Notes under the pieces: model-generated
Seen by the model: the letters and a program-made list of their open reading frames with translations, nothing else
Told to the model about the DNA's origin: nothing
Databases searched by the model: none
Source of the DNA: Archaeoglobus sp.
GTDB taxonomy: Archaea > Halobacteriota > Archaeoglobi > Archaeoglobales > Archaeoglobaceae
Direction of reading: 5' to 3'
DNA: 34,022 bases
Assembly: GCA_017656505.1 (NCBI GenBank)
Contig: JACDNU010000029.1
Span: 1-34,022, forward strand
Translations under genes and position numbers: made by a program
Part shown: positions 2,754 to 31,210 of the stretch, piece by piece
How positions within the stretch are numbered: position 1 is the stretch's first letter
How the letters are laid out: each line of letters starts with the position of its first letter

Positions 2754-5700
2754 ATGGGTAGTTATAGGATTGGCGTAATTAGGATAATCTCAATCAGAGT
2801 TTGTATTTTGCTAGCCTTGTTGTTTCTAACTCCTTCGGTTTATGCTGCTGATATAATCGTTCCAGACGATTATCCATCAATCCAGGATGCGATTGATGCT
2901 GCAAACGATGGAGACGTAATTATCGTGAGAGATGGGGTGTATAGTGTTTATCTTAACATCAACAAGAGCATAACTCTAAGCTCAGAGAATGGCACAGCAA
3001 ACTGCATTCTCGAGGCAAGCACTAACGATGATGTCATCGAGGTGCATGCCGATTACGTCAACATAACCGGTTTCACAATAAAAAACGGCAACGATGATGG
3101 GATAGATGTTGAGCCTTACAATTCTGATCCTTCTAACCACGTCAATATCTCTGGAAACGTTTTTTACAACCTCTACGGCGGAATACAGCTTGAAGACGCG
3201 AATTTTTCTGTTATAATGAACAACAACATCTCCGCTGTAACGGAGGGGATATATTATGTTGGATCGTCTTACCACAACCTCATCGTAAATAACACGATTT
3301 CCAACTCTGATTACGGAATCAACATTCCGGCTGGAAATGACAGCGAGATATATCTTAACAAATTCATCAACAACAGCAGGAACGCGTGGGATTGCGGAAG
3401 CAACTACTGGAACTCCACAGAAATGCATGACTACATATATCAGGGAAATGCTTTCACGAACTATACGGGCAATTACTGGGATGATTACACTGGTATCGAT
3501 GCAAACGGAGATGGAATAGGCGACATTCCATACAACATCTCTGATGAGTTCTGCGGTGGTGAAGGGGGCGGAGGAGAAGGAGATGGCATAGTAATCATCG
3601 GTGAAGGAGCGAGCTCCCAGCCAAAAGATTACTATCCGATGCTTTTCGAAACTTTAGCTCCACCTCAAATCTTGAACATTCAGGAAAGCGATTTAGCGAA
3701 TTCGAGCATTACGATAAGCTGGGATGTGAGCTTGATTTCCAACAACCGCATACTTTACAGCCTAAATGAGGATTTATCATCCCCAGCATGGTCTGAATGG
3801 GACAACAACACCGCAAATCCATCGATAACCCTTTCCGGATTGTTGGCTAACACTACTTACTACTACTCTGTTTATTCTTACAGAATCGATAACGCGAGCA
3901 TTTACTCGAACAGCTCTATCAGAGATTTCACAACCATAAGAAATCCAAAAACATGGTATGTGGATGACGATGGCCTGAACTGCTCCGCAGACTTCACCAC
4001 CATTCAAGATGCTGTGAACGCCTCAATCGATGGAGACACGATCGTTGTATGCAACGGAAGTTACAACGAGAACATTTTCGTTAACAGATCTCTGAACATC
4101 ACCGGCTTAGCAAATCCCATTGTTGACGCTGGGTACAACGGAAGTGCTTTTACCTTAGCATCAGACGGGAATATCATCCAGGGTTTTACGATCAAGAACA
4201 CCTCATTTTTCGCCCATTGCTACGGAAGCATTCCAGAAGCGGGGGTTAGGGTTGGCTACACAACCTATCAGGTTGTAGGGGCTGGAGATTGCATCCAGAT
4301 AACGGATCATGAGTCCACAGACAACGTCATACGAAACAACATATTCATCAACAGCGGAATCGTGCTTGTTAAAGGCTACATTCAATCGGGCTCGGACAGG
4401 AACACGATAGTGAACAACACCTTCAATGCCTCCCGCATTGAAATAGAGGGATCGAGTTACAATAACATCACCTCTAACACCTTCACTGGGGAGACGCATT
4501 ACGGCTACATTTCCATCGAAGGGTTAAGCTATAGAAGTGCGAGGAACAATCTGATTCATGGCAACACCTTCACCAAGCATTACGAATCCACCATGCCGAT
4601 GTTATGGATAAAGGGCTATGCCAGCCATACGAACATCTCAAACAACACCCTAATAGGCTATGGAGGGATATCTGTAAGCTCAGGCGACTGCGTAATTACT
4701 AACAACGAAATCGAGGGATTCACCCCGATCAGGGAAAACGACGATGGAATACTGATTAACCATGCAAGCAACTGTCTGATCGCCAACAACTCCGTTAAAG
4801 AGAAATACGCTGGAATAAAGATCGATTCCTCATCTCCCTATGCCTTTTCCACCAATCTGACACTTAGAAGTAACAATTTACAATCAAATACCTACGACTT
4901 CTACTTCAACCCCGGCAAGGTTCAGGATTTCACGAACTCACCCAGTTTTCCGGATTTTGATCACGATATAGATTTATCGAACAATGTCAGCGGTGGTACG
5001 ATCTACTTCCTGAAAAATGTTTCGAATGCGGTGTTCGATCAGACTGCTCAACCAGCAATCGGATTTTTTGCCTGCGTTAACTGCGAGAATGTTACTGTGA
5101 GGGACATCGGCTTATCTTCCAACTCTCACGGAGTACTCCTTTACAACACCTCCGATTCGGTTATAGATTCCGTGGGAGTCTACTACAACCACCTTGCAGG
5201 GGTGGCTATTTACTCTTCAAACAACATAACGATAATCAATTCCCGATTTGAAGAGAATGGGCAGTCAAACTATGCTTCAGGTATCTATATCGGTGCATCC
5301 GAGAATATAACGATCGAGAACGATGAAATAAACTCGAACTGGTGCTATGGCATTAAACTCGAAACATCGAACAACAGCGCTATCCTTAGCTCCAACATCA
5401 CTGACAATGGCCCAAGCTACTACGTCCCTCCAGCAAACAACCCTTGCTATCCCAGCGGGATCGGAATCAAGATGTACGATTCTGACAACAACACGATAAA
5501 AACGAATTACATAAAGGCAATTGTTATTCCAAAACAGGGAACGTGGAAAGGAGGGCAGGGATACGGCATACACTCCACTTCTTCGTCAAACAATCTGATT
5601 TACAACAACTACTTCTTCAACCACAGCGTGAACGCCTATGACACCGGAGTTAATCGCTGGAACACAACAAAAACCGCAGGGGTAAACATAGTGGGCGGAC

Positions 5701-8700
5701 CGTACTTGGGAGGTAACTACTGGCACGATTACGCTGGAGCTGATACGATAGGAGGAGACGGATTGGGTGATACGCTCCTTCCCTACAACTCAAACGGAAA
5801 CATTCAGAATGGAGGAGATTATCATCCTCTAACAAGTGTTGTTGCAGACACAACTGCTCCATCCATTCATGTTGTTTCTCCGGTTGAAAGCGGGATTTAT
5901 TCTGCAAGCTACGTCTATCTGGAGGTTTACTCTCCCGACCCCGACGTTTACAGATGGTGGTACTCGCTGAACGGTGGAGCGAATGTCACTTTCACACCGA
6001 ATACGACGATAACTGATTTAACTAACGGAAATTATAGCCTGACAGTTTTCGTTAATGATACCGCCGGCAACGTCAACTCAACAACCGTAAATTTCACGAT
6101 AAGTATAACAACGGGAGGGGGAGTTGGTGGAGTTGGTGGAGCCGGAGGAGGCACATCTGAAACCCCACTCGAAGAGGTAACGCAGCCCAATTTTGAGATC
6201 ACGATTCTCAGCCCTGAGAGCAAGGAGTATTTAGAGAGAGATTTGCAGCTTTCTTTCACATCTCCCGTCCCCTTGCTAAGGGCATCTCTGATAGTGGATG
6301 GTGGCGATGTAGACTCAATAAGCATCTCTGCTTACGCAACCTTCGGCTCGGTAGAGTTAACTCGTTTACACCTTGGAAAGCACGAAATCATAGTTAATGG
6401 GGAGGATTACTATGGCAGGAAAGGGAGGGGAGAGGTTGAATTCGAGATTATACCCCTAACCTTAGGAGAATTCAATGTTACTGGCACCGAGACAACTCCC
6501 TGCTTCGTTGACGATGTGGCATTCTCATTCTACGGAAGAAACACGGATTATTCCCTTGAATTCGAAGCTAAAGGAGAAGCAAGGATCGGTGTTCACGTTA
6601 ACGAATACTACAGAGAGGGTATTCAACCATACAACAATCTTTCCGGTGGATTGATTTATTCATTCACTCCCACACCAACATATCAGAAGTACGAGATTCC
6701 AATCTCAGCAGATAATATAACGGCAGACGTTGAAAATATTATCTCCTTCGTTTCCGAAAATACGGGGAATATAAATAAAGAGAGAGGCTGGGAAATAAAG
6801 AATGTAACCCTTATCCCTTCCATACCCTTCACCTTCCCCCAGATAACCGTTTTCACCTTCAATAAAGCGATCTCAGAAAACGAGATCATGACTGCTTATC
6901 TTAGAATTGATGGGGTGGTTAATAGCACCGATTACAAAGCATATGTTTATTTATTAACACCAGAGGGTAAAAAGCTATACTATCCGGATTGGAATGAGGA
7001 TGAGAAATCGATCGATGATTACTACTTGAGAACGAACTACTACGGAAAGCTTCCCTCAACCTTGAAATTCAGCAATTTCAGTGGTGGAACTTATATCCTC
7101 GTTGGAAAAATTGTTGACAGGTTGAACCAGCCTGTCTCTCTTTCGACTGACAAGCTTTATTACAGCAAGGAGAATTCGGTGAAGCTCTATGTCAACAAAG
7201 GCATTTTCAACGAGGGGCAAGAGGTCATAGTTGAACACATGCTTACGGGGAGAGGGGAAGATAATGGAACGTTAATCATTTCCTTAGAGAACCCAGACGG
7301 ACAGCTTATCTACCTCCCAATGCTCTCCGAGAAGCAGAAGGGTAGAGAGTACAATCCAATTCGGTCTGATTATTCCATACCATTCAACGAATTCGTGAAT
7401 AACTGGAAGGAAGGAACCTACATTATCAGGAGCAACTTATACAACGAATCTGGAGGACTTATTGATGATGATATTGTTACCTTTGAGGTTTGCAGCAAAA
7501 CATCAACACTGGAGGGAAGCTACCTTAGGAGAGTAGAAGATAACGATAATTCTTCGTTTTTCCTGAGTAGGGTAAGAGTTATTGATTACTATACTCTTGA
7601 AACAAGTGATTCCGAGTTCAAAGGGGACCATTTCGGATATTTCATAACCCTTAAGCCGGGGAAGTATTACTTGACAGGTGAGGCTTACAGCAGAAGTGGC
7701 AAGGCGTATTACATCCCTCTCACTCCGATAAGTGTCGGCTGTGGAGAGAATAAGACGAGAAATCTGGAGCTTGAGTATCTTTCTAAAGCGAACGTAAGTG
7801 CATACGGTGAAAGGGCGAGTCCTTGGAGGGATTTATGGAAAGATACCGAATCTGAGTTGGGTTTGATTTCCCTAAATTCAAATTCAAATCTGAATCCAAT
7901 AAAACTTGAAGGAGAATCTAACACATGCTCAAAACCGAAGGTGGCTGTTCTTGTAAGCATACAGAACGAATACGCTTTGAACATGCTGAGAGATGACATG
8001 AAACTTTTGTATGGGGAGGAAGGATACGAGAGCGCACCTGAAGGAAAATTCGCCAGATATTTCGCCTTTAAGGTTGTTGAGATGCTAAAAGCCAACTCCC
8101 CAGACGTTGATGTTTACTCAATAACAGGTTTGCTGGACTCTCTTACCGCTACAGAGGACCAGCTCTCACAAACCTCAGCAAATCCCGATGCCTCAAAAAT
8201 CTCACCAAATATGATTCCAGATTACATTTACAAGGTTTCAATTTCAGGTGAGGAGGATCTTTCTTACTATTCAATATCAACCTCTTTGACCGCAATCCCG
8301 AGTTATGTGATAGTCAATCCGACCAATTTCTTTTCAAGTTTTGTTAGCGATCCGCTAAATGAGATCAGACGTATCATACATAGAACTGGAGATTTAAGAC
8401 CGCTTATAGATGATTTTGAGATCAAACATCCTGTTCCACCCAGAGATCCCAGATTGGAGATTACAGTCGTTCCGGAATCTGTCTCACCAAATACGGAAAA
8501 AAGCAAGAAAGCAACCATCCATGCAAAGGTCATCGATTGCAGGGGCAGGCCTGTTATTGAATTTAGCAACTATGGTGTGCTCAGAAGACAGGAAGTTTAC
8601 TTCCAGAAATACACAGACAGAGGGGTTGTTAAAGCTGACTGGGAGGCCACAAAGGTCTCAATGTACGGCGAAGGGGACTGGGAGATTGTTCGTGCTAAAA

Positions 8701-10028
8701 ACTGGGTTATTGGTGATACGAGAGAGGGAGGAGTTGCAATAGCAAAATACACCCTTGAGAAAGGAATAAAGGCTGGGGAGGACAGGGTAAAAATAATCAC
8801 CTATGGTAGAGGAATGAAAAAAGCCAGTGGTACTGCTGTCATCAAAATAAGCGGTGTGGGGATGGATGTTAAAGCGGATAAGGAAGAAATCCCACCAAAA
8901 CATTCAACTTTTGTTGAAGTATTCCTCTATGAGGAAACGGAAGATGGTAAGACCAAGCCTTTGGCTGGCAAGTCGATAATAATTGGCAAAGTGCAGTTGC
9001 TGGATGGTAGGCTAATCCCTGTTAGTAGTTTGGATGCAAATGGCAATCCGGTAACGGATGAGAATGGTATTGCTAAACTGAAATTCACAGCAGGTAAGAA
9101 GGAAGGAGTTGTGAGGATTCCCATAAAATACCAAACCAAACTGGGCGAAATTCATGACACAGCTTTAATCAAAGTTAAAGAGAAGGAATTTGTTTTGTTT
9201 ATCACGTGGACCGCCAATAGCCTGTATACAACAACAGGAACTGAAACAAGACAGTCCTCCTGCAGGGAACTGTGCTGTCCCCCGGATGAAGATGAGTGTC
9301 ACTGGGAGTCGAGTTCAGGAAGTTATTCGGAGAATATAAAGCGAATTTTTGGACATTCATACTATTTCACTTCTCAGACCACATGGAAACAGGGAACGAA
9401 AGAGGAGCGAACCACTGCCACTTTCATCAGAACAAAACATAAATTTGGTGAAAGAGATTGGGGAAGTAGCGGCTCTCGTTGCGAAGCGAGTTGGAGTGGC
9501 AGCGGCACTTCCCAGTATAGCTATGAAGGCTCAGCCTCATCACAGGTATCAGATGCATATAGCGAAATTGTTTTTGAAACTCGGAGTGGAGATCTGTTGC
9601 TGTGCATTGATCCGATTCAGTATCCTGTGTTTTTAATGAAAGGGTCTGGCACTGAAAGTTTTTCAAGTTCGTACTCGTCTGGAAGTGAGAGTTACAGTGG
9701 CAGTACATCATTTAGTTGTCAGTATGATGGGGATCCATCTACAAAAACGGGTTGCTTTACAGGTTTTGCGGAACGGGTACGTGTGTGGGTTCCATACTCT
9801 TGGATAACTAAAAAACCTGGTTTAAATTGTTTCATCCTGAAAAAGGTGGGGAAAGATAAATGGGAGGAAGTTAACGCAGACATCAACCCGAAAAATTCGA
9901 GATCTGGTTCAGGAACACGAACTTACACAATACCGGGAACTTGGCCATGTACAATCACAAAGTCTTATTCCAGCAATTATGGAGCCATGAGAGAAGCTCA
10001 CTTGGAGATCAGGGTGGTGAAGAGATGA
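2754..10028 (+). CDS. Giant secreted multidomain beta-helix surface protein (2424 aa)
   Basis: The ATG at 2754 follows a strong site, GGAGGAAAAC. A signal peptide spans residues 1-31, with cleavage likely after PSVYA. Residues about 32-262 are a NosD-like right-handed beta-helix, opening PDDYPSIQDAIDAANDGD and closing with GNYWDDYTGIDANGDGIGD. After a Gly/Glu-rich linker there is a fibronectin-III-like domain (about 302-395). A second, much longer beta-helix runs from about 400 to 1012, opening TTIQDAVNASIDGDTIVV and closing GGNYWHDYAGADTIGGDG. An Ig-like domain (about 1032-1115, starting DTTAPSIHVVSPVESG) and a glycine-rich hinge (GGGVGGVGGAGGG) follow. Then come several beta-rich modules, an alpha/beta-looking domain near 1727-1880, more Ig-like modules and a Ser/Gly/Cys-rich tail from about 2150. 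N-x-S/T sequons are very frequent. No C-terminal membrane segment or sorting signal is present. Likely role: surface structure, adhesin or polysaccharide binding or cleavage; the exact activity is unknown. Confidence 0.88.
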   Translation: MGSYRIGVIRIISIRVCILLALLFLTPSVYAADIIVPDDYPSIQDAIDAANDGDVIIVRDGVYSVYLNINKSITLSSENGTANCILEASTNDDVIEVHADYVNITGFTIKNGNDDGIDVEPYNSDPSNHVNISGNVFYNLYGGIQLEDANFSVIMNNNISAVTEGIYYVGSSYHNLIVNNTISNSDYGINIPAGNDSEIYLNKFINNSRNAWDCGSNYWNSTEMHDYIYQGNAFTNYTGNYWDDYTGIDANGDGIGDIPYNISDEFCGGEGGGGEGDGIVIIGEGASSQPKDYYPMLFETLAPPQILNIQESDLANSSITISWDVSLISNNRILYSLNEDLSSPAWSEWDNNTANPSITLSGLLANTTYYYSVYSYRIDNASIYSNSSIRDFTTIRNPKTWYVDDDGLNCSADFTTIQDAVNASIDGDTIVVCNGSYNENIFVNRSLNITGLANPIVDAGYNGSAFTLASDGNIIQGFTIKNTSFFAHCYGSIPEAGVRVGYTTYQVVGAGDCIQITDHESTDNVIRNNIFINSGIVLVKGYIQSGSDRNTIVNNTFNASRIEIEGSSYNNITSNTFTGETHYGYISIEGLSYRSARNNLIHGNTFTKHYESTMPMLWIKGYASHTNISNNTLIGYGGISVSSGDCVITNNEIEGFTPIRENDDGILINHASNCLIANNSVKEKYAGIKIDSSSPYAFSTNLTLRSNNLQSNTYDFYFNPGKVQDFTNSPSFPDFDHDIDLSNNVSGGTIYFLKNVSNAVFDQTAQPAIGFFACVNCENVTVRDIGLSSNSHGVLLYNTSDSVIDSVGVYYNHLAGVAIYSSNNITIINSRFEENGQSNYASGIYIGASENITIENDEINSNWCYGIKLETSNNSAILSSNITDNGPSYYVPPANNPCYPSGIGIKMYDSDNNTIKTNYIKAIVIPKQGTWKGGQGYGIHSTSSSNNLIYNNYFFNHSVNAYDTGVNRWNTTKTAGVNIVGGPYLGGNYWHDYAGADTIGGDGLGDTLLPYNSNGNIQNGGDYHPLTSVVADTTAPSIHVVSPVESGIYSASYVYLEVYSPDPDVYRWWYSLNGGANVTFTPNTTITDLTNGNYSLTVFVNDTAGNVNSTTVNFTISITTGGGVGGVGGAGGGTSETPLEEVTQPNFEITILSPESKEYLERDLQLSFTSPVPLLRASLIVDGGDVDSISISAYATFGSVELTRLHLGKHEIIVNGEDYYGRKGRGEVEFEIIPLTLGEFNVTGTETTPCFVDDVAFSFYGRNTDYSLEFEAKGEARIGVHVNEYYREGIQPYNNLSGGLIYSFTPTPTYQKYEIPISADNITADVENIISFVSENTGNINKERGWEIKNVTLIPSIPFTFPQITVFTFNKAISENEIMTAYLRIDGVVNSTDYKAYVYLLTPEGKKLYYPDWNEDEKSIDDYYLRTNYYGKLPSTLKFSNFSGGTYILVGKIVDRLNQPVSLSTDKLYYSKENSVKLYVNKGIFNEGQEVIVEHMLTGRGEDNGTLIISLENPDGQLIYLPMLSEKQKGREYNPIRSDYSIPFNEFVNNWKEGTYIIRSNLYNESGGLIDDDIVTFEVCSKTSTLEGSYLRRVEDNDNSSFFLSRVRVIDYYTLETSDSEFKGDHFGYFITLKPGKYYLTGEAYSRSGKAYYIPLTPISVGCGENKTRNLELEYLSKANVSAYGERASPWRDLWKDTESELGLISLNSNSNLNPIKLEGESNTCSKPKVAVLVSIQNEYALNMLRDDMKLLYGEEGYESAPEGKFARYFAFKVVEMLKANSPDVDVYSITGLLDSLTATEDQLSQTSANPDASKISPNMIPDYIYKVSISGEEDLSYYSISTSLTAIPSYVIVNPTNFFSSFVSDPLNEIRRIIHRTGDLRPLIDDFEIKHPVPPRDPRLEITVVPESVSPNTEKSKKATIHAKVIDCRGRPVIEFSNYGVLRRQEVYFQKYTDRGVVKADWEATKVSMYGEGDWEIVRAKNWVIGDTREGGVAIAKYTLEKGIKAGEDRVKIITYGRGMKKASGTAVIKISGVGMDVKADKEEIPPKHSTFVEVFLYEETEDGKTKPLAGKSIIIGKVQLLDGRLIPVSSLDANGNPVTDENGIAKLKFTAGKKEGVVRIPIKYQTKLGEIHDTALIKVKEKEFVLFITWTANSLYTTTGTETRQSSCRELCCPPDEDECHWESSSGSYSENIKRIFGHSYYFTSQTTWKQGTKEERTTATFIRTKHKFGERDWGSSGSRCEASWSGSGTSQYSYEGSASSQVSDAYSEIVFETRSGDLLLCIDPIQYPVFLMKGSGTESFSSSYSSGSESYSGSTSFSCQYDGDPSTKTGCFTGFAERVRVWVPYSWITKKPGLNCFILKKVGKDKWEEVNADINPKNSRSGSGTRTYTIPGTWPCTITKSYSSNYGAMREAHLEIRVVKR

Positions 10029-11293
10029 AAGGGATGAAAGAGAGGGGAGAGATAAAGGATAAAGAGATAAGACATTTGAAATACATCTTAATTGTATTTG
10101 TCCTATTCGCCACCTCCATACCCGTCTCCGCTGAAACCATAGAGGTATGCGAAAAATGCAGTTTTTCAACAATTCAAGATGCTATAAATGCTTCCAATGA
10201 GGGTGACACAATTGCTGTGTCTTCTGGTATGTATCGAGAAAATCTGAAAATATTGAATTCAGTTAAAATTGTCGGAAATAAAACAACCCTCGAACCTGAA
10301 TTTAGGATGCTATCTACCATCCAGGTGATGATGGCTCAAAACTTTACCCTGGAAAATATGGAAATTAAAAACGGAAGCACAGGGATTGAAGCGAAGTATC
10401 TAAAAAGCCTCGAAATCAAGAACTGCGTTTTTGAAAACAACTTTAAAGCCATTACCATGTCTCAGGTTGGTCTGGGTAAGCTTGATGGGCTAAAAATAAC
10501 GGGATTCGTCGACGGTGTAAAAATTGATCAATCGAGTTCTGTAGAGATTGAGAACAGCCTTTTTGATAATGGAATCAATGCTGTGAGCGCAGATGCCTCA
10601 GATGAAGTAGGCCTTTCGAATCTGACAATCGATAAAACAGAAACGGGAATAGAGTTTTCGGGTGGGGAAAGAAATCTCGTTGAGAGCTCAACTTTCTCTG
10701 GAAAGGTTTTCATTTCCGCATTCTCGGAACGTGGATTGGTTGCCAAGGGAAATGATGTGAAGGGCACTTATGCGATTGATGGGGCAATGTATGGCAACCT
10801 GTATGTGTTTAATGGGCTAAATGTCTCTGGAGGGCAGTTCCATATATCTGTTGAGGAAGTTGAAGTCCCCGAAGGCTTTGTTCAGTTAAGCGATGCTATA
10901 AATGCCACCATAACTCCCGATATCTACACGGAAGAGGGATACGTGTACTTGAAAATGAATCTTGACAGTGAGAAAATCGAAGATCTTTCAAACCGCATTG
11001 ATGTTTCAACCCTCGCATTCTACCACTTTACCGGCTCGAATATGGAGAGAGTTTCAGACTACTACAATTCAAGCAATCTGACTCCTCTGGGCTTCACATC
11101 AAACAAAAGCGGGATTTATGTCCTGGCAGCCGAAAAGATTCAGCCTAGAAAACCTACAGCCACTCCTTTAACAACTCCTTCAATGCCCATTTCAACTCCG
11201 GTCGAGCAGCCAAAATGGATTCCAGGTTTCGAATCTATAATTGCGGCGATAGGAATATTTGTAGCATTGATTCTTAGAGAAAGGTGGAGTTAA
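10025..11293 (+). CDS. Secreted beta-helix protein with PGF-CTERM surface anchor
   Basis: The ATG at 10025 overlaps the giant gene's TGA as ATGA, with GGTGGTGA just before it, so translation is probably coupled. The open frame extends back to 9941, but that part lies inside the giant gene and would put 28 residues ahead of the signal peptide. From 10025 the protein is 422 residues. A signal peptide (YILIVFVLFATSIPVSA) is followed by a short NosD-like right-handed beta-helix opening FSTIQDAINASNEGDTIAV, with repeats such as LENMEIKNGSTGIEAKYL. A beta-rich domain and a Thr/Pro linker (KPTATPLTTPSMPISTP) follow. The C-terminus reads WIPGFESIIAAIGIFVALIL then RERWS: a PGF motif, one hydrophobic helix and basic residues. 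That is the archaeal PGF-CTERM signal processed by archaeosortase A and replaced by a lipid anchor. It probably tethers the complex formed with its upstream partner. Confidence 0.87.
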   Translation: MKGMKERGEIKDKEIRHLKYILIVFVLFATSIPVSAETIEVCEKCSFSTIQDAINASNEGDTIAVSSGMYRENLKILNSVKIVGNKTTLEPEFRMLSTIQVMMAQNFTLENMEIKNGSTGIEAKYLKSLEIKNCVFENNFKAITMSQVGLGKLDGLKITGFVDGVKIDQSSSVEIENSLFDNGINAVSADASDEVGLSNLTIDKTETGIEFSGGERNLVESSTFSGKVFISAFSERGLVAKGNDVKGTYAIDGAMYGNLYVFNGLNVSGGQFHISVEEVEVPEGFVQLSDAINATITPDIYTEEGYVYLKMNLDSEKIEDLSNRIDVSTLAFYHFTGSNMERVSDYYNSSNLTPLGFTSNKSGIYVLAAEKIQPRKPTATPLTTPSMPISTPVEQPKWIPGFESIIAAIGIFVALILRERWS

Positions 11294-12061
11294 ATGACGC
11301 TCAGGCTGTTTTTTGTAATTGCTTTTGCTTGGTCGTGGTTGTTTTGGATGCCTGAAGTTCTGTGGGATTTCAGCTTGTACGTAGCTCCATTTGGGCCTAC
11401 CGTAGCCGCCTTTCTTCTTACATATATGAAGGAAGGCCGAAATGGAGCGAAGGAACTGCTTAAAAGAGCTTTAGACTTTAGCTTCAGAAAGATCTGGCTT
11501 GTTCCAATATTTTTACTTATGCCGGCGATTGTAGGTCTTTCTTTCCTGCTGGCTATTCTCAGCGAACCAGCTCCAGAGATTGCGGTTTTGTCCCAGCCAT
11601 GGGTTATTATCCCCGCATTTTTCTACATCCTCTTCTTAGGCGGCCCCTTGCAAGAAGAATTTGGCTGGAGAGGATACGCTCTTGACAGATTGCAGATGAA
11701 TTATAATGCTTTAGTTTCCAGCGTGATAATTGGAGTCGCGTGGGGGTTATGGCATCTCCCCCTGTTCTTCATGCAAAGGCAGGAACTGTATTACAACATC
11801 CCAATTTGGGATTTCATCCTCGGCACAATTTTTTTCTCGATGATATTTACGTGGATATACAACAATACGGGCGGAAGCATCTTGGCTGTCCTCCTTCTCC
11901 ATACAACGGGCAATCTATCACACTTCATCTTCCCGGTTGTTGCAACCACCTGGGGCGGGCTCTACTCCCTCATATTAAACGTGATCGTTGTGGTAGTTAT
12001 TTTGAAAATATGGGGGGCAAAGAGAATGGTTCGTGGGGAAGTTAAGATCCCCAGCGGATAA
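11294..12061 (+). CDS. CPBP family intramembrane glutamic protease
   Basis: The ATG at 11294 directly abuts the TAA of the PGF-CTERM gene, so it is the third gene of the surface-protein operon. The 255-residue protein has six to eight membrane segments and the three CPBP (Abi/CAAX protease) motifs: EEFGWRGYALDRLQ (Glu121, Glu122, Arg126), WGLWHLPLFF (His154) and LLHTTGN (His203, Asn207). All predicted catalytic residues are present. The family includes the eukaryotic CAAX prenyl endopeptidase Rce1 and many bacterial enzymes with uncertain substrates. Placement behind two secreted beta-helix proteins suggests a role in processing or surface maturation of those partners, or protection against them; this is inference. 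Confidence 0.88.
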   Translation: MTLRLFFVIAFAWSWLFWMPEVLWDFSLYVAPFGPTVAAFLLTYMKEGRNGAKELLKRALDFSFRKIWLVPIFLLMPAIVGLSFLLAILSEPAPEIAVLSQPWVIIPAFFYILFLGGPLQEEFGWRGYALDRLQMNYNALVSSVIIGVAWGLWHLPLFFMQRQELYYNIPIWDFILGTIFFSMIFTWIYNNTGGSILAVLLLHTTGNLSHFIFPVVATTWGGLYSLILNVIVVVVILKIWGAKRMVRGEVKIPSG

Positions 12062-13673: not shown

Positions 13674-14055
13674 TGATTTTTTGACGTTCATCATAGGCCT
13701 CTTCAAACACGATAGGAAGGCGAGGGAAAAAGCAAGAAAATTGGACGACGAGACCTCTCCAAAGATGCTATCAGTTGTGACGGTTCATGAAGTTCTAAGG
13801 GGTTTATTCTATATAGGAAAAGAGGAGAAGGTAGCTGAAGGGGAAAAAGCCCTGAGCAGATTCGATTTAATTCCTTACACCTACGAAATAGCCAAGAAAG
13901 CTGCAGAAATCGACGCTGAATTAATTAAACGAGGTGAAATGCTATCCTTCCCAGATGTTGTTATTGCAGCAACTGGAATCGTGTATGATTTGAAACTTGT
14001 AACGAGGGATGAGCATTTTGGGAGGATAGAGGGGCTTAAGATCGAGGGGTACTAA
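13674..14055 (+). pseudogene. vapC: VapC-like PIN toxin with damaged N-terminus
   Basis: From a TTG at 13681 the frame gives 124 residues: LTFIIGLFKHDRKAREKARK, then VTVHEVLRGLFYIG (the second acidic PIN residue), FPDVVIAATGIVYDLKLVT (third) and RDEHFGRIEGLKI. PIN toxins normally begin with a strand of the type hhhDTxxhh whose Asp is catalytic. Here GTG-ATT-TTT at 13674-13682 would code the expected V-I-F, but the next codon is TGA. Only the TTFIIGLF half of the motif survives, in another frame. The simplest reading is a small out-of-frame deletion (about 7 nt, inferred from the family pattern) that removed the Asp-Thr. The rest of the domain is intact and about normal length. The product, if made from TTG, should lack nuclease activity. 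A sequencing error cannot fully explain it, because adding one T restores the frame but not the Asp. Confidence 0.65.
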
Positions 14056-14153: not shown

Positions 14154-14588
14154 TTATTGCCCCTCAAGCAACTTTAAACCTTCCACCCTCTTAAAATGCT
14201 CCACGTTCCTCGTATACACAACAGCTCCATTTTCCAGAGCAATTCCGGCGATCATAGCATCCCTGAAATCAATCGGTTTGCCCTTTCTTTCTAACTCCGC
14301 AACTATCTTGCCAGAAATTTTTGCGGAGAATTCTGTGAGTTTGAGCGGTTCTAACCTTTCAGTCAATTCATCTACGGCTTTAACGTTCTTTTTCACCTTT
14401 CTACTTTTGAAAGCCCCGAAATATAGTTCAAATATGTTTATTGTGGTTGTTGTTAAGTCGAATTTCTCTTCAAGCTTTTTTATTTTCTCAACGGTCTGCT
14501 GAGATCCTCTTAGAATGTCTACGAGAACATCCGTGTCCAAACAGATGGTGGCATGGTTCAAATCCTCTAACTCCTCCAAGCCTTCCAC
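14154..14588 (-). CDS. vapC: VapC-type PIN domain toxin (intact)
   Basis: A PIN-domain ribonuclease with a complete acidic set: ICLDTDVLVDILRG, INIFELYFGAF and IDFRDAMIAGIALENGA, then the usual VapC ending YTRNVEHFKRVEGL. VapC toxins cleave tRNA or rRNA and are held in check by the paired antitoxin. The gene lies directly behind its VapB on the minus strand. The longest start is a GTG at 14586-14588, overlapping the antitoxin end by 22 nt (144 residues). A TTG at 14559-14561, 5 nt after the antitoxin stop, would give 135 residues and places the catalytic Asp closer to the N-terminus, as is usual. The two starts cannot be separated from sequence alone. It converges on the broken toxin gene. 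Confidence 0.83.
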   Translation of the reverse strand: MEGLEELEDLNHATICLDTDVLVDILRGSQQTVEKIKKLEEKFDLTTTTINIFELYFGAFKSRKVKKNVKAVDELTERLEPLKLTEFSAKISGKIVAELERKGKPIDFRDAMIAGIALENGAVVYTRNVEHFKRVEGLKLLEGQ

Positions 14589-29674: not shown

Positions 29675-31210
29675 ATGAAATATTCGGTATTTCTCTTATG
29701 CTTTTCATGCTTAATTTTGCTTGGCACTTTTGCTCAAAGCGTGACTGAAGCGGAAATACTCGAAACATGCCCCAACTGTGGCGATTACGAGTATGTTAAA
29801 GTTAGGGTTACCTGCGATAGAGCAACTCTAACAGACGGCGAGGGCAAGATACAGCTTTCCAAGGGGTTAATAATCGTTACAAAGAATTCAACGGCATTCC
29901 TCAGAAAATTTGGTTTTTATCCTGATGTGGAAGCTCAAAAAGTTAATAGAAGGTTTATGCTTTCCAATCAGGGAGAAGAAATTCTCTTACTCTGCAATGG
30001 GAGTGTTGAGGATAAATTTGCCTATGGGAAATATGGGCAAGGAATAACATCTTACACCGATCGAAACTTGATTTATTTCAGAAATGAAGGCATCTGGGAT
30101 TTCAGATATGCAGACTGGACAAATTTTACTCCCGTCTCGGATGAAGTTAAAGGGAAAATCGTTATTTTTCCCAATGATTTGAAAATTGACGCTGAGGAAA
30201 GTGTAGTTCTGGTTTCTTACATCCTGACGAATGGGCTAAACCTCAAGGAGCTTGCAAGGAATGGAGTAAGGGTCGAGATCTATCTTGATTCATCTCCTGT
30301 AGGGGGAATTCCTGTTGAAGAGGCTGAGCTGGTTAAAGAGCTGAAGCCTTTTGCTGAAATCCATTTTCTTTCCTCTGATAGCTACAAGAATTTTCATTAT
30401 AAGTTCGCCGTAATCGATGGTAAAAAAGTAATAATCACCACAGAAAACTGGAAAACCTCAAATAGGGGTTACATGATCGAGTTGGAGAGTGAAAAGATTG
30501 CCAGCTTCTTGCTCGATGTCATAGGGCATGACAGAAGATACAGCTCATCCCCAAGCAAGATTTCAGAGCTAAGGGGCTTTAAAAAATCTGTTATCCCAGC
30601 TCCCTCGATGAAATTTGAAGGAGGGGTTGAGGTTTTCATCCTACCGGATTCCAATCCTACCTTTGATTTGATCTCATCATCTAAGAGGGAGTTGCTGATA
30701 GAAGTGCCATACATGGATCTCACATGGTTTGGAACTGATGAACTACTTTATTTGATAGAGAGCGCGTGTAAAAACAACTCAAAGGTTAGAATTCTGCTAG
30801 ATTCAAGGCATTCAAAAGAAAAAAATGAGAAGCTCATTGAATTTTTAAATCAGTTGGCAAAGGAGAAGGGATACAACCTCGAAGCAAAACTGATAGCTTT
30901 AAAGGGCTTCGAGTCATTGCACGGAAAGATGATTTACTCAGATGGAAGATGCATGATAACGTCGGCAAACTTCAACGAGTACGGCTTCAAGCTGAACAGG
31001 GAGGTGGGTGTGATTATTGAAAGTAAAGAAGCATGTGAATTTTTGAAAAAGCAATTTTATGAGGACTGGAAGGATAGATTTGAGCTCGCGGATTTCCCTG
31101 AAAGTCTACCCCAGAATCTACCCAAGAACCTGCCTAAGATACATTCTCCCTTTGATTTCTCAATAGCAACCTTCATCCTCATGACCATTGCAATCTACAC
31201 CCGGAAGTAG
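29675..31210 (+). CDS. Secreted phospholipase D-like (HKD) protein with C-terminal membrane anchor
   Basis: A 511-residue protein with a signal peptide (VFLLCFSCLILLGTFAQS), then a cysteine-containing start of the mature part (ETCPNCGDYEYVKVR) leading into a beta-rich lamin-tail-like domain. Two PLD half-domains follow. The first catalytic motif is HYKFAVIDGKKVIITTENWK; the second is LHGKMIYSDGRCMITSANFN. Both have H-x-K-x4-D, so a dimer-like active site is possible within one chain. A Pro/Asn repeat LPQNLPKNLPKIHSPF precedes a final hydrophobic helix (FDFSIATFILMTIAIYTRK), which would fix the protein at the outer face. Such proteins act as phospholipases or as nucleases; which applies here is unknown. 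It starts 31 nt after mptA and its end overlaps the convergent GIY-YIG gene by 16 nt. Confidence 0.85.
   Translation: MKYSVFLLCFSCLILLGTFAQSVTEAEILETCPNCGDYEYVKVRVTCDRATLTDGEGKIQLSKGLIIVTKNSTAFLRKFGFYPDVEAQKVNRRFMLSNQGEEILLLCNGSVEDKFAYGKYGQGITSYTDRNLIYFRNEGIWDFRYADWTNFTPVSDEVKGKIVIFPNDLKIDAEESVVLVSYILTNGLNLKELARNGVRVEIYLDSSPVGGIPVEEAELVKELKPFAEIHFLSSDSYKNFHYKFAVIDGKKVIITTENWKTSNRGYMIELESEKIASFLLDVIGHDRRYSSSPSKISELRGFKKSVIPAPSMKFEGGVEVFILPDSNPTFDLISSSKRELLIEVPYMDLTWFGTDELLYLIESACKNNSKVRILLDSRHSKEKNEKLIEFLNQLAKEKGYNLEAKLIALKGFESLHGKMIYSDGRCMITSANFNEYGFKLNREVGVIIESKEACEFLKKQFYEDWKDRFELADFPESLPQNLPKNLPKIHSPFDFSIATFILMTIAIYTRK

Follow-up and report, generated by a model that had tools for sequence, protein, structure and literature searches.

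A giant secreted beta-helix protein and a smaller, membrane-anchored protein encoded directly behind it form, as judged by comparison across genomes, a conserved and almost invariably coupled pair, well beyond what chance would give. Both genes lie in the window, the 34,022-nucleotide stretch of Archaeoglobus sp. DNA analysed here, which lies on contig 29 of a 95-contig genome. The explanation we consider probable is a translationally coupled secreted complex, in which the giant, made up of parts A and B, would be tethered to the membrane by its smaller partner and would serve as an adhesin, with an unrelated CPBP-family gene following behind. NosD-type beta-helix surface proteins are abundant in archaeal genomes, and it is seldom clear which of them go together. 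Here, a giant, an unmatched protein family, and a dedicated anchored partner make up a unit that can be traced between genomes, and a natural fusion of A with B predicts which parts are in contact. The giant, which has no anchor of its own, gains a testable partner, and the adjacent protease is a clear example of a neighbour to be excluded from such a model.

The open reading frames were re-read, and their lengths, the ATGA overlap between the first two, and the abutting start of the third are as the preliminary description of this DNA gave them. The partner's start codon, at 10025, shares bases with the TGA that closes the giant; its last base is 11293, and CPBP opens with an ATG on the very next base, 11294. 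The features are as follows.

2754..10028, + strand: giant secreted protein, 2424 aa, in which aa 1-1681 are part A and aa 1682-2424 are part B
2850..3548, + strand: first NosD-type beta-helix of part A, aa 33-265 (Pfam NosD/Beta_helix stretches)
3660..3935, + strand: fibronectin-III-like domain of part A, aa ~303-394 (weak, below cut-off)
3951..5843, + strand: second, long NosD-type beta-helix of part A, aa 400-1030 (Pfam)
5850..7793, + strand: stalk region of part A, aa 1033-1680
7926..8441, + strand: alpha/beta domain of part B, aa 1725-1896 (AF2 model and alignments; no database match)
8451..9176, + strand: Ig-like region of part B, weakly invasin/Big_1-like, aa ~1900-2141
9186..10025, + strand: C-terminal region of part B, aa ~2145-2424, predicted in the AF2 model to form long beta-strands, with the recurrent VVKR as its last residues
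10013..10020, + strand: Shine-Dalgarno-like GGTGGTGA within the giant's last codons (part of RVVKR), upstream of the partner ATG
10025..11293, + strand: anchored partner, 422 aa, starting at the in-frame ATG 10025
11222..11290, + strand: PGF-CTERM-like sorting signal, with PGF (11222-11230), a hydrophobic stretch, and basic residues
11294..12061, + strand: CPBP/Rce1-family membrane protease gene, 255 aa, judged to be a lineage-specific neighbour outside the conserved cassette

Domain annotation with Pfam and NCBIfam shows the rest of the window to be ordinary chromosome. Two PIN-domain genes (13681-14055, + strand, and 14154-14588, - strand) lie between the cassette and a tRNA-Gly gene and hint at toxin-antitoxin genes or their remnants. 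Further along, a Phospholipase-D-like protein (29675-31210) gives a sub-threshold match to DrmC of the DISARM system (69 of 133 bits), and no further defence gene was noticed alongside it.

Coupling of the giant and its partner

With the giant as query, a search of 60 relatives returned four full homologues besides that of the window (genomes G002, G004, G023, and G035), and close homologues of the partner were found in exactly these four genomes, in each case adjoining the giant. One of them, G002, which carries the window's genus code and appears to be Archaeoglobus sp. JdFR-32, encodes a near-full giant homologue; at this locus (L027:174-720) a frame shift near residue 193 breaks the giant, possibly through an assembly error in the draft genome. 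A profile built from the last 1200 residues of the giant was then run against the phylum (393 genomes) and picked up homologues in 15 further genomes, one of them marginal; family-wide searches added more. In all, whole-genome searches placed giant and partner together in 22 genomes, at 23 loci, spread over 13 genera and 5 family codes. Carriers are scattered, with 8 among 55 Archaeoglobaceae, 9 among 28 genomes in family f25, and 3 among 112 in family f5, and the cassette is therefore an accessory system. The preliminary description had named homologues routinely found apart as one observation that would speak against its three-gene cluster; across genomes this is what was found for the three genes together, while giant and partner keep to one another.

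Wherever the junction could be read (20 of 20), the partner lies directly downstream of the giant or of a separate B gene. The two genes share 4 nt in 12 cases and 1 nt in 4, and the rest are separated by gaps of 1, 4, 5, and 31 nt. A sequence like GGTGGTGA precedes the partner start in most cassettes and at the same time encodes the recurrent VVKR C-terminus, which may owe its conservation to the ribosome-binding site and not to the protein. In the mechanism proposed here, the start-stop overlap and the embedded Shine-Dalgarno-like sequence would keep the amounts of the products matched.

Such coupling does not in itself make a complex. It is possible, if rather unlikely, that the two proteins are only co-expressed, the giant being released as a matrix component or in an enzyme-like capacity and the partner acting separately at the membrane. 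Both products are beta-helix proteins, a fold common to polysaccharide lyases and tailspikes (the fold search with the partner model returned generic right-handed beta-helices), and 14 of 20 other NosD-type open reading frames also end without an anchor. Against this stand the strict co-occurrence and adjacency of the partner family, which was found nowhere else, the near-invariant gene overlap, which suggests matched amounts, and the fusion of A with B in one lineage. Gene fusion is a common sign of physical partners. We regard the tethered complex, in which the partner would bind the A-B protein and hold it at the membrane, as the better account of the pair.

Parts A and B of the giant

The giant belongs to the NosD/CASH right-handed beta-helix family, matching PF05048 with 211.4 bits and PF13229 with 90 bits (cut-offs 23.6 and 25.9). 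It is not NosD proper, and neither is the partner; a role of either in copper maturation was rejected since they reach 175.9 and 41.9 bits against TIGR04247, where the cut-off is 300. Between the two helices of part A, the fibronectin-III-like match has an E-value of 0.008 in the window and 1.8e-4 in the best homologue. The stalk contains a Big_13-like segment, below cut-off, at aa 1073-1116, and its remainder is conserved with no Pfam match. The giant's only hydrophobic segment is N-terminal, the signal peptide, and there is no C-terminal anchor. This agrees with the preliminary description, in which the giant was secreted and the partner alone carried an anchoring signal. An anchorless giant is not in itself unusual, as a control set of 20 other NosD-type open reading frames included only 6 with a C-terminal membrane segment of their own. 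With anchorless NosD proteins this common, the missing anchor alone is no reason to require a tether. From the signal-peptide pattern, all products of the cassette would be exported by the Sec route, and part A would then project outward as a long rod, forming an adhesin or glycan-binding surface fibre. It is the fold class that suggests this adhesin function.

Part B has no Pfam match in the window, and the B family as a whole was not matched to Pfam, NCBIfam, or the PDB; a PDB sequence search for solved relatives returned none, and its first domain has no NCBIfam relative. In the AF2 model of part B (pLDDT 80.6, pTM 0.53), an alpha/beta domain is accompanied by Ig-like domains and by long strands. 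The alpha/beta domain begins with CSKPKV, and alignments place it at the point where the mature protein starts in genomes that encode B separately. By eye alone its pattern resembles TolB-N/CsgG; sequence searches of Pfam, NCBIfam, and the PDB returned no match for it. The Ig-like region gives weak Big_1 and Invasin_D3 matches among B homologues (Big_1 in 9 of 15, best E-value 1.7e-5), and part B of the window does not reach the cut-off for PF02369 (Big_1). A phage or plasmid origin of the cassette was considered and rejected: single-protein searches found no phage match for the giant and no match for B in plasmids or IMG/VR.

The division of the giant into A and B is drawn from other genomes. 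In families f5 and f25 and at one locus of family f23 (G281b), the giant is represented by two genes, A, comprising the beta-helix and Ig stalk, and B. The order in these split cassettes is A-B-partner, nearly always with overlaps, and A ends near giant residue 1680; the first six A-B junctions examined all had a 4-nt overlap. Separate B proteins are about 635-735 aa long, with their own signal peptide and a mature start near CS/CP-x-P. Since A and B are separate genes in f5, f25, and G281b, the giant of the window is an A-B fusion, as are the single open reading frames of the Archaeoglobaceae, G212, and G281a. In the fused form B is thus covalently attached to A, whereas in the split form the two would presumably associate without a covalent bond. 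The genome coded G281 (L097 and L098) has one cassette of each form, fused and split, and is the sole such case seen.

Trees of B and of the partner were built quickly and have long branches, so they are indicative. On both, the change between fused and split forms maps to a single branch. A single Archaeoglobaceae clade was rejected on the partner data (p 7.6e-5); on the B data the rejection was weaker (p 0.017). Together with the patchy presence, this rejection suggests that the cassette was transferred between families. The partners of L101 (G197) and L100 (G212) group with full support across two families; a grouping of G197 with G004 was rejected on the partner tree, and B leans the opposite way (p 0.056). 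The partner may have been exchanged between cassettes. A broader interpretation of these data is that the cassette builds an undescribed archaeal surface appendage, a secreted complex of three parts with A as the beta-helix rod, B as a new family (its alpha/beta domain unmatched, its beta-strands very long), and the partner as a dedicated anchored base, which spreads between families as a unit and in which A and B became fused in one branch. We hold this only tentatively, and it seems to us a good deal less probable than the tethered complex.

Broken copies were seen as well. At L103 (G180) the cassette is degraded, with stops and frame changes in the giant and only the tail of the partner, ending IPGFESIIAAIG, left. 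Genome G201 has two partner fragments (G201:C9:6046-7005 and G201:C13:9-971), which the partner profile matched in part at about 210 bits, fitting copies broken by contig ends. Its C22 cassette is cut inside its own partner, and with fragments on other contigs, G201 probably has two copies of the cassette.

The anchored partner and the CPBP gene

The partner is made up of a signal peptide, a NosD-type beta-helix (aa 38-270), a juxtamembrane domain (aa 285-370), a Pro/Thr stalk, and a PGF-type tail. It matches PF05048 with 33.8 bits and PF13229 with 42.5 bits (same cut-offs as for the giant). Its AF2 model (pLDDT 82) shows a signal helix, a confident beta-helix, in which most of aa 41-230 have a pLDDT above 90, a small juxtamembrane domain, and a disordered, low-confidence stalk ahead of the terminal helix. 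The preliminary description had taken a NosD-like opening shared with the giant as part of the case for the pair. The motif is real, but the giant's copy, TTIQDAVNASIDGDTI, occupies residues 415-430, where the second helix begins, and the true opening reads PSIQDAIDAANDGDVI. It is also generic, as the partner profile matches at E-values of 1e-25 or below in 179 of the 393 genomes of the phylum, mostly on the helix; the shared TIQDA motif alone is therefore no evidence of a special relationship. What sets the partner apart is its C-terminal domain, which alignment shows to be conserved beyond the NosD repeats. Matches of at least 260 bits to the whole-partner profile occur solely at cassettes, and the remainder, apart from the two G201 fragments, reach at most 160 bits, mainly over the helix. 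By this measure the full-length partner family, recognised by its juxtamembrane domain, is restricted to cassettes.

The partner tail, IPGFESIIAAIGIFVALILRERWS, has the three parts of a PGF-CTERM signal: PGF, a hydrophobic segment that comes after IPGF, and basic residues. PGF and one Arg are invariant among five close Archaeoglobaceae homologues. The TIGR04126 (PGF_CTERM) model matches one of the five close partner members (E-value 0.0022), and in a search of the window's own genome the partner was unlisted even at E-values up to 1. That genome does encode archaeosortase A (TIGR04125, 225.8 bits, G000:C24:30140-30883), and cleavage with lipid attachment by ArtA has precedent in Haloferax volcanii (PMC7157517). 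All 19 complete partners, a set that omits the contig-cut copy of G317, end in a hydrophobic segment with basic residues, and neither the giant nor B ever has a C-terminal membrane segment. PGF is found in five Archaeoglobaceae copies; G197, also of the Archaeoglobaceae, and the complete copies of other families have a plain C-terminal membrane segment without PGF. On the alignments, then, the membrane end of the partner is conserved while its form changes, and the partner would be held by an ArtA-type tail in the five copies and by a plain transmembrane segment in the others.

Alternatively, the cassette may build an S-layer or sheath instead of an adhesive fibre. In its combination of Ig-like domains with a PGF-anchored stalk it is similar to S-layer proteins of archaea, for example Mhun_2263 (PMC11641113), and N-glycosylation sequons are dense: per 100 aa, part A has 3.5 where 1.7 are expected, and the partner 2.4 where 1.0 is expected. 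This is, in our view, improbable: presence in 8 of 55 Archaeoglobaceae ill suits an essential lattice protein, and neither the giant nor the window partner matches an S-layer family, the one weak S_layer_MEMAR match (E-value 0.025) being to a partner homologue.

Two features were seen around the cassette in relatives. In G004, the gene directly upstream (L131:600-14537, - strand) encodes another NosD/Beta_helix protein, of 4645 aa, which has CARDB domains, a Pro/Thr stalk, and a C-terminal membrane segment of its own. In the f25 genomes G370 and G307, a similar lipoprotein-like gene of ~255 aa follows the partner (L093:5913-6692 and L094:5505-6269, both - strand); it was unnoticed in other families.

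The third gene is a CPBP protease, as described before, with a Rce1-like Pfam match (PF02517, 60 bits, cut-off 22.4) and the motifs QEEFGWR and HTTGN, which fit EExxxR and HxxxN by eye. It had been proposed as a third member of the secreted complex, acting in processing or maturation. This idea was reasonable, because CPBP-family sorting enzymes exist and one of them, MrtJ, serves a single neighbouring JDVT-CTERM protein (PMC11980579), and here the genes abut on one strand and the protein has weak similarity to the myxosortase core. The comparative data argue against it. Seventeen other cassettes have 600 nt or more of sequence beyond the partner, and a CPBP gene adjoins the pair in none of them, so the three-gene order does not recur there, and the four closest cassette genomes (G002, G004, G023, and G035) lack a CPBP homologue at E-values up to 1e-3 despite having the same PGF partner. 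The nearest relatives of the protein, in G036 (80% identity) and G206 (79%), are in unrelated contexts without giant or partner and with no recognisable CTERM protein alongside. In G004, a DUF488 gene that is 86% identical to the window DUF488, which comes after CPBP, begins ~60 nt after the partner; because the G004 partner runs directly into DUF488, the CPBP gene occupies a site that is empty there. The protein scores below the NCBIfam cut-offs for Mrt_core (NF040914, 24.7 of 100 bits) and MmRce1 (75.7 of 425), the partner tail has no counterpart of the invariant Cys of MYXO-CTERM, and ArtA is already present in the genome. We thus rejected CPBP as a cassette member and regard a dedicated role for it in processing or sorting the pair as highly improbable. 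As it is absent beside every other cassette, the gene was apparently gained in the lineage of the window. Of the complex first proposed, the small protein as tether fits the conserved pair, and the protease drops out.

Comparison with known systems

A search of the open-access literature returned no description of a giant-(B)-partner cassette, in line with the preliminary description, which knew of no system of this composition. The closest relatives of both proteins are the NosD/CASH surface proteins (PF05048 and PF13229), with which giant and partner have in common the repeats, signal peptide, and fold. The cassette differs from these by the undescribed B part and by a dedicated anchored partner in fixed order. 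The window partner is also like proteins sorted by ArtA (TIGR04125 and TIGR04126) in having PGF, a hydrophobic stretch, and basic residues after a Pro/Thr stalk, although TIGR04126 does not score its tail and the complete partners of G197 and of families other than the Archaeoglobaceae have no PGF. What the window has in common with myxosortase-type systems (MrtX and MrtJ; PMC11980579) is a CPBP protease encoded next to a protein with a C-terminal tag; in contrast to these, the window enzyme falls far below the Mrt_core cut-off, the tag has no Cys, and the gene is not conserved with the pair.

The Ig-like repeats of B, which dominate the fold search with its model, align with the invasin/intimin adhesins FdeC (4e9l), InvE (5n40), and InvD (5ldy). 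This is a local domain resemblance (TM-score normalised by target 0.24-0.27), and unlike these adhesins B is archaeal, has no outer-membrane anchor, and is flanked by unmatched domains. Some NosD-type proteins of relatives (L134, L135, L145, and L146) have dockerin- or EF-hand-like ends (e.g., DVNSDGIINVLDATKVKN), possibly another form of surface attachment. Cassette members that were scanned gave no dockerin or cohesin Pfam match. In archaeal dockerin/cohesin assemblies (PMC9012536), retention of an unanchored secreted protein by a second protein is well established.
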